64,000 bases of DNA from an uncultured Clostridium sp. (GTDB taxonomy: Bacteria; Bacillota; Clostridia; Clostridiales; Clostridiaceae): NCBI RefSeq assembly GCF_947072515.1, contig NZ_CAMTIG010000013.1:1-64000 (forward strand), given 5' to 3'. Below the pieces are notes generated by a model that worked only from the letters and a program-made list of their open reading frames with translations, had not been told where the DNA came from and searched no databases. A program made the position numbers and the translations under genes. Position 1 is the first letter of the stretch. Every line of letters starts with the position of its first letter. Shown piece after piece: positions 34,667 to 35,173 of this stretch.

Positions 34667-34888
34667 ATGAGTCAATTAGCAATGTTAGGAGCAGGTATTG
34701 CCGTATTAGCAGGTATTGGTGGAGGTATCGGTACTGGTATCGCAACATCAGCTGCAATTAAAGCAACAGTAAAACAACCTAAAGCAGCAGGTAAAATTCA
34801 AGGGATATTCATATTAGCAGCAGGGTTCTGTGGAGCTACAGCAATATATGGATTTATTATTTCAATGATATTAATGTTCGTTAAATAA
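34667..34888 (+). CDS. atpE: ATP synthase c-subunit-like protein lacking the ion-binding carboxylate
   Basis: 73-residue two-helix hairpin proteolipid. The Gly-rich first helix ([16 protein letters not shown]), the polar loop (VKQPKAAG) and the second helix with IFILAAG and ATAIYGFI are clearly those of F0 subunit c. At the position of the essential ion-carrying Glu/Asp (E55 in the next gene) it has Gly56, codon GGA at 34832, one base from GAA. Such a subunit could not carry an ion in rotation. It has its own AAGGAGG site and sits 60 bases before the normal c gene, so it is presumably made. It may enter a mixed ring or serve another role; this is unproven. Confidence 0.85.
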
Positions 34889-34954
34889 AAAATAGCAATA
34901 AGAAAAATACTATAAAAGAAGAAAGTATATTCTTATAATAAGGAGGATATGATT

Positions 34955-35173
34955 ATGGGAATCGGATTAATAGGTGTAGGTTTAGCAGCTGTAACAGCGC
35001 TTGGAGCAGGTATCGGAATCGGTATAGCAGCTAAAGGGGCAGTTGAAGGTATAGCTAGAAAACCAGAAATGTATGGGAAAATACAAGGTATGTTTATATT
35101 AGGTGCAGGTCTTGCAGAAGCAACTGCTATATATGGACTTATCGTAGCGATCTTATTATACTTTGTACACTAA
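34955..35173 (+). CDS. atpE: ATP synthase F0 subunit c
   Basis: 72-residue proteolipid with the Gly-rich helix GAGIGIGIAAKGAV, loop ARKPEMYG and second helix ending LAEATAIYGLIVAILLYF, in which Glu55 is the ion-binding residue. The Gln in helix 1 and Ser after the Glu that mark sodium-binding rings are Ile22 and Ala56 here, so proton coupling is more likely. AGGAGG is 8 bases before this ATG; the ATG at 34949 is too close to it. It follows the carboxylate-less paralogue. Confidence 0.95.
   Translation: MGIGLIGVGLAAVTALGAGIGIGIAAKGAVEGIARKPEMYGKIQGMFILGAGLAEATAIYGLIVAILLYFVH

Follow-up and report, generated by a model that had tools for sequence, protein, structure and literature searches.

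The number of carboxylates in a c-ring sets the number of ions moved per ATP. In the V-type proteolipids (c/K) a blank hairpin, with Gly at the place of the carboxylate, comes first and a hairpin with Glu comes second; the c subunit of eukaryotic V-ATPases has Gly there too. The V-type hairpins are fused, which fixes their 1:1 alternation. Duplication with ligand loss in V-type c is discussed in excerpts of PMC2359735, which also cite Cross and Taiz 1990, a work concerned, by its title, with gene duplication altering H+/ATP ratios. Among enzymes encoded in F-type operons, the F/V-hybrid rotor of Acetobacterium woodii and Clostridium aceticum (c1 with c2/c3) combines non-identical c subunits, and one of its hairpins lacks the carboxylate. 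In A. woodii the blank hairpin forms the second half of c1, a fused four-helix protein of the Na+ type, and carries Gln (PDB 4bem_J; PMC7911925), the ring has a 9:1 composition (PMC7911925, PMC8904574), rotors of this type are considered to have a lower ion/ATP ratio (PMC7911925), and the unusual ring needs AtpI (PMC8904574). In Bacillus PS3, a fused c10 ring bearing a single E56Q substitution no longer supported ATP synthesis (Mitome 2004, as related in PMC8809890). In the literature on the ATP synthase of Clostridium thermobutyricum, heteromeric c-rings, duplicated atpE and atypical c subunits, subscription papers such as a 2015 review of hybrid rotors (cited in PMC7911925) lying outside this scope, we found no description of a gene such as the one reported here.

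An atp operon with two unlike c genes

The window, a stretch of 64,000 nucleotides on contig 13 of a clostridial genome of 3.9 Mb (G000), contains a complete F-type ATP synthase operon with the gene order a-c-c-b-delta-alpha-gamma-beta-epsilon. We refer to the c subunit without the carboxylate as Gly-c and to its partner as Glu-c.

33065..33887, no strand: region before atpB in which no atpI is recognisable (ORF scan)
33936..34622, + strand: atpB, subunit a (Pfam ATP-synt_A; diagnostic columns)
34667..34888, + strand: Gly-c, carboxylate-free c subunit, 73 aa (Pfam ATP-synt_C)
34832..34834, + strand: Gly56 codon GGA, the ion-carrier position of Gly-c (Gly in all eight genes)
34955..35173, + strand: Glu-c, partner c subunit, 72 aa, with Glu55 (Pfam ATP-synt_C, TIGR01260, ribosome site)
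35117-35119, + strand: Glu55 codon GAA of Glu-c
35227..35703, + strand: atpF, subunit b (Pfam ATP-synt_B)
35706..36245, + strand: atpH, subunit delta (Pfam OSCP)
36266..37774, + strand: atpA, subunit alpha (named from sequence; matched across the operon set)
37848..38723, + strand: atpG, subunit gamma (named from sequence; matched across the operon set)
38740..40134, + strand: atpD, subunit beta (the listed ORF opens early, at GTG 38668)
40145..40555, + strand: atpC, subunit epsilon, with C-terminal helix domain (Pfam)

The reading frame of atpB opens at 33888, and the ATG at 33936 carries a Shine-Dalgarno site. Because of the Shine-Dalgarno spacing, Glu-c probably starts at 34955, eight bases after AAGGAGG, rather than at the ORF start 34949. 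The operon is followed directly (40693-42161) by a small ORF that looks GntR-like by eye and a DUF1648/DUF5808 protein. Elsewhere in the window there are a purine riboswitch aptamer on the minus strand (20141-20240, 51.2 bits) and an 886-aa glucosaminidase with repeated bacterial SH3 domains (48388-51048).

The initial annotation had described two adjacent c genes with Gly56 (GGA) in the first against Glu55 (GAA) in the second, and the sequence confirms this. Its further claims of strong ribosome sites on both genes and of differing polar loops were borne out by Shine-Dalgarno energies of -12.2 kcal/mol for Gly-c and -11.1 kcal/mol for Glu-c, and by the loop sequences VKQPK and ARKPE, respectively. 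Both proteins pass the Pfam ATP-synt_C cut-off of 24 (57.7 bits for Gly-c, 61.0 for Glu-c). With the NCBI c-subunit equivalog TIGR01260 (cut-off 43.95), Glu-c passes at 57.5 bits and Gly-c fails at 38.1. The conserved carboxylate in helix 2 of F-type c subunits is absent from Gly-c, and helix 2 contains no Asp or Glu in any of the eight Gly-c genes that we detected. Over its entire 73 aa the Gly-c of the window contains neither residue, and the same is true of both C. thermobutyricum copies; in the other five genes acidic residues occur solely at or near residue 2 and in the loop. Relocation of the carboxylate to helix 1 is known from suppressor work in E. coli; we looked for it in the eight Gly-c proteins and did not find it.

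The comparison with A. woodii made in the initial annotation holds in that a blank hairpin occurs beside a c subunit with a carboxylate. It does not extend to the fusion, the Gln, the Na+ type or the need for AtpI: Gly-c is a free two-helix protein with Gly, both c proteins of the window being single hairpins of 72-73 aa, no atpI was found, and one operon encodes two blank proteins. The Na+ motif Q....ET is likewise absent from the partner, which has Ile at position 23 and Ala after the Glu in all seven partner sequences, and a Na+ site in Glu-c was rejected by this motif. Fused c1 proteins like that of A. woodii, with Gln in hairpin 2, do occur at L075 and L078-L080. The Gly-c/Glu-c pair resembles an unfused V-type proteolipid set in an F-type operon, its hairpins being separate genes with their own stops and ribosome sites. 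When aligned by eye, the V-type c of the same genome (L040) shows Gly at the carboxylate place of its first hairpin and Glu at that of its second, and NtpK of Enterococcus hirae (PDB 2bl2) matches it there. This two-hairpin c belongs to an apparently complete V/A-type ATPase operon (L040:1161-9663; genes named by eye), and C. thermobutyricum has two V-type c genes with equal scores on one contig (G089:C91:54590-54997 and 78356-78763).

An AtpI-like ORF upstream of atpB was found in none of six evaluable Gly-c operons, compared with 17 of 17 ordinary operons examined, a number that includes the operon supplying the query. One C. thermobutyricum operon (CtA) was unevaluable because its contig ends there. 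The stretch 33065-33887 of the window contains no AtpI-like ORF of at least 60 aa and no ORF of at least 50 aa on the + strand. A genome-wide Pfam test for AtpI was weak, failing in G590 to detect an AtpI that phmmer did recover.

Occurrence and conservation of Gly-c

In total, we detected eight Gly-c genes in seven operons of five genomes, which belong to two genera. The second F-type operon of the window's genome (contig 38, L039) encodes the same Gly-c/Glu-c pair; of the six c matches above the Pfam cut-off in this genome, four are F-type c subunits and two are the hairpins of one V-type c. C. thermobutyricum DSM 4928 also has the pair in two operons (L051, L052), the only two loci in a scan of named contigs that used two peptides absent from the genes of genus g265 and is therefore blind to those. 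Among 206 genomes of the family, a profile search gave eight matching genomes, three of them with ordinary c only, and a codon-pattern search gave 16 matching genomes, five of them with Gly-c: G000, G089 (taken as C. thermobutyricum because its coordinates and proteins are identical to those of L051 and L052), G590, G591 and G593. The last three belong to another genus than the first two. The codon-pattern search of 225 genomes of the order, family included, matched 10 genomes and added no further Gly-c, and when a sample of 391 genomes of the class was searched with a profile, G000 alone had Gly-c. In that class sample, 37 genomes besides G000 have at least two c matches; the regions read, from 13 of these, contain no separate blank c, and carry either several c copies of the Na+ type, a fused c1 like that of A. 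woodii, or a single ordinary c. A blank c may occur in the other 24. In viral contigs 115 stretches matched the pattern and none encoded a relative. Pattern matches outside the Gly-c genes were dismissed as unrelated proteins. The patterns demanded exactly GAT[AST]IYG (or Gly, Ala or Val first), and other kinds of blank c would escape them.

Gly-c precedes Glu-c inside the operon in all seven cases. The operon of G593 (L095:7133-7888) has three c genes, two without the carboxylate followed by one with Glu; its second blank c reads AGATSIYG and has a polar loop lengthened by three inserted residues. An ordinary single-c operon is also present in G590 and G591, and no ordinary F-type c was found in G000, G089 or G593. 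We also looked for Rnf as a shared energy partner, and found one match in G000 (an RnfD/E-type protein, G000:C9:49654-50484) and none in the four other Gly-c genomes.

The initial annotation had named Glu at this position in relatives as a sign of sequencing error or recent mutation. Relatives were searched accordingly for the same gene order and the Gly: the pair recurs, and the corresponding gene of the nearest relatives keeps Gly. In other clostridia the ordinary single-c operons carry Glu, which is unsurprising, theirs being a different c gene. Three synonymous codons encode the Gly among the eight genes (GGA in five, GGT in two, GGG in one), and error or recent mutation is excluded by the presence of Gly in all eight genes of five genomes under a varying codon.

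Between the two operons of G000 (winA in the window and winB), Gly-c is the most conserved subunit with 84% identity, followed by beta (75%), alpha (72%), Glu-c (71%), a (60%), delta (50%), b (46%), gamma (40%) and epsilon (29%, across the 80 residues that remain in a truncated copy). Across four operons of two species, including the C. thermobutyricum operons CtA and CtB, Gly-c identity is 84-97%. The Nei-Gojobori pN/pS of Gly-c is 0.066-0.176 over six operon pairs and is the lowest of eight compared subunits in five of them, the exception being winA-CtA, where beta is lower (0.140). Four further pairs with G590 and G591 gave 0.108-0.182.

The Shine-Dalgarno energies of all eight Gly-c genes lie between -10.2 and -12.2 kcal/mol, and those of seven Glu-c genes between -7.8 and -11.7 kcal/mol. 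The weakest Glu-c sites are those of operon B in both species (-7.8 and -8.9, against -10.2 for Gly-c); this does not point to equal dosage and counts against the reading that we favour below. Ribosome-site strength is no sufficient guide to the ratio between Gly-c and Glu-c. We considered RNA structure as a means of setting dosage and rejected it: four stretches were folded, three between c genes and one before Gly-c, and none was, on average, stabler than its shuffles (z 0.23 to 1.77).

Changes in the partner c and in the rest of the enzyme

Both c proteins share the family and the loop of ordinary clostridial atpE, and both are altered at near-invariant positions, Glu-c keeping the carboxylate and Gly-c being without it. 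We compared seven distinct Gly-c, seven partner Glu-c and 53 ordinary c sequences, chosen by a motif filter; sequences that agreed throughout their last 60 residues were treated as one, which leaves a single row for the Gly-c of winB and CtB and seven distinct rows for the eight genes. Around the lost Glu, every Gly-c retains A57, T58, I60, Y61 and G62, and the helix-1 glycines 18, 20, 22 and 24 are kept in all seven as well. Position 51 is Ala in 7/7 Gly-c and Gly in all partners and all 53 ordinary c; position 32 is Lys in six of seven Gly-c and an acid in every partner and ordinary sequence; position 19 is Gly in all Gly-c, in one of the 53 ordinary c, and Ala in all partners. The partner departs at positions of its own: Ala or Ser at position 16 in 7/7 (Gly in 52 of 53 ordinary c), Lys at position 28 in 6/7 (Gly in 50 of 53) and Arg or Lys at position 37 in 7/7 (Gln in 50 of 53). 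The partner is thus no ordinary c accompanied by a bystander. Drift after duplication could also account for the differences between the c kinds, which would count against our main reading.

In a tree of c subunits (73 columns, which resolve little; 11 Na+-type c left out), the Gly-c sequences and the partner sequences are each monophyletic (99/98 and 100/98), with stems of similar length, about 0.37 and 0.39 changes per site. Both clades group weakly (55/91) with the ordinary c of genus g265; a single duplication would fit. On the operon tree the Gly-c operons do not form one group. The Gly-c label has to change twice there: G593 branches off separately, and two ordinary operons lie in between. 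This is hard to square with the short c tree, in which each c kind is a single clade. The Gly-c operons of G590 and G591 are the sister group (100/100) of operon A from the window and from C. thermobutyricum, and a transfer between genera is therefore possible. From the operon set we dropped the beta of G588a, G588b and G589, whose gamma was lacking where the contig ended; partial rows were kept, for example the delta of G591n and G587 and the beta of G012.

Subunit a has three columns that are fixed in the seven Gly-c operons and absent from the ordinary ones, whereas b, delta and alpha have none (15 ordinary operons compared for these four); gamma has none and beta has two, in a variable part (12 ordinary operons compared). 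In subunit a they are I130, T224 and I226, numbered from 33888. T224 and I226 (window 34557-34565) come after the conserved Gln near the C-terminus, in a helix that we take to face the ring, near the position of E. coli Gln252. Subunit a reads QT[IV]IF there in 7/7 Gly-c operons, and all 15 ordinary operons have QM or QV, a residue, V or A, then F. The Arg motif LRL[FY]GN of subunit a is retained in all 22 operons, seven with Gly-c and 15 ordinary. Epsilon is 133-139 aa long in six of the seven Gly-c operons; in the second operon of G000 (L039:3007-3252) it has 81 aa and is without the C-terminal part, its C. thermobutyricum counterpart having 133 aa.

Candidate roles of Gly-c

On balance we favour the reading in which Gly-c is built into the c-ring as a structural subunit; this heteromeric ring would have more hairpins than ion sites and move fewer H+ per ATP. 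The mixed ring that the initial annotation had put forward fits the conservation of Gly-c, the departures of both c proteins from ordinary c and the changes in subunit a. Further points in its favour are the residues retained around the lost Glu and in helix 1, the single clade of each c kind on similar stems, the strong ribosome sites of all eight Gly-c genes and the Gly-then-Glu order in the genome's own V-type c. What is inferred is the duplication itself, the incorporation of Gly-c, its ratio and arrangement, a lower H+/ATP, H+ as the coupling ion and the direction of pumping. A c gene would have been duplicated, one copy would have lost the ion-carrying Glu (to Gly), and the copies would then have specialised as partners. 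Because hairpins would outnumber ion sites, the ring would move fewer protons per turn and per ATP, in the V-type fashion, through separate proteins instead of a fusion. Such an enzyme may suit an ATP-driven proton pump in a fermenter that must hold a steep gradient, a role that we regard as plausible.

Several observations count against this reading. The separate genes do not fix the ratio and order of Gly-c and Glu-c, and the enzyme may be accessory in the two genomes that keep an ordinary operon. The E56Q result also speaks against a working synthase. PS3 rings with some carboxylates altered are engineered and harmful (PMC8809890, in excerpt), whereas Gly-c is natural and conserved; since a blank subunit harms an ordinary enzyme, one would have to assume either that subunit a and the partner c compensate for the blanks or that the enzyme only pumps.

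The missing atpI, being compatible with an assembly role too, also counts against a structural subunit. Here the main rival is that Gly-c is an assembly or scaffold protein in place of AtpI, one that seeds or closes a ring of Glu-c and then leaves or stays as a single copy. It draws on the lack of an AtpI-like ORF in the evaluable Gly-c operons and on the dependence of the A. woodii ring on AtpI, and we hold it to be improbable: the strong Shine-Dalgarno sites of all eight Gly-c genes do not suggest a scarce assembly factor, changes in the partner c and subunit a would be unexpected for a factor that leaves, and Gly-c is a paralogue of c and no relative of AtpI. A few copies might instead enter the ring conditionally as a regulatory brake, stalling rotation or blocking synthesis and so sparing the gradient, much as one carboxylate-free hairpin halts ATP synthesis in the fused PS3 ring (PMC8809890, in excerpt). 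We think a brake quite unlikely, as Gly-c lies within the operon ahead of Glu-c in 7/7 with a strong ribosome site, three between-gene stretches folded from the seven operons are no stabler than shuffles, and three of the five Gly-c genomes yielded no ordinary F-type c.

The truncated epsilon of the second G000 operon would agree with an uncoupled or slipping ATPase in which the blanks waste ATP or vent the gradient; the epsilon of 133-139 aa in the other six operons and the Arg motif kept in all seven make this very improbable. Decay of a neutral duplicate, or a sequencing error, has next to no chance of being correct. The c family tolerates tandem copies, as in A. woodii-like operons, and nothing else favours it; we hold it refuted by the eight genes, the synonymous variation of the Gly codon and pN/pS values of 0.066-0.182 in ten pairs.

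Under the preferred reading of Gly-c as a ring subunit, a bolder proposal, which we put forward tentatively and rate as rather doubtful, is that Gly-c and Glu-c alternate round the ring through preferred contacts (the swaps of small residues at positions 19 and 51, and Lys32 against Glu32). The enzyme would then be an unfused F-type rotor with half the ion sites, a living counterpart of the step of duplication followed by loss proposed for the origin of the V-ATPase, and G593 with its three c genes would have gone one step further, to two blanks per site. If this alternation is true, carboxylate loss can precede fusion.

A blank subunit halts an engineered ordinary F-type enzyme, yet here it is the part most conserved between two operons. 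If Gly-c is in the ring, the ion/ATP ratio would be tuned by mixing two small proteins, and not by ring size or by hairpin fusion. The cultured C. thermobutyricum DSM 4928 makes testable both the tolerance of a ring for gaps between ion sites and a possible loss of carboxylates before fusion in V-ATPase evolution.
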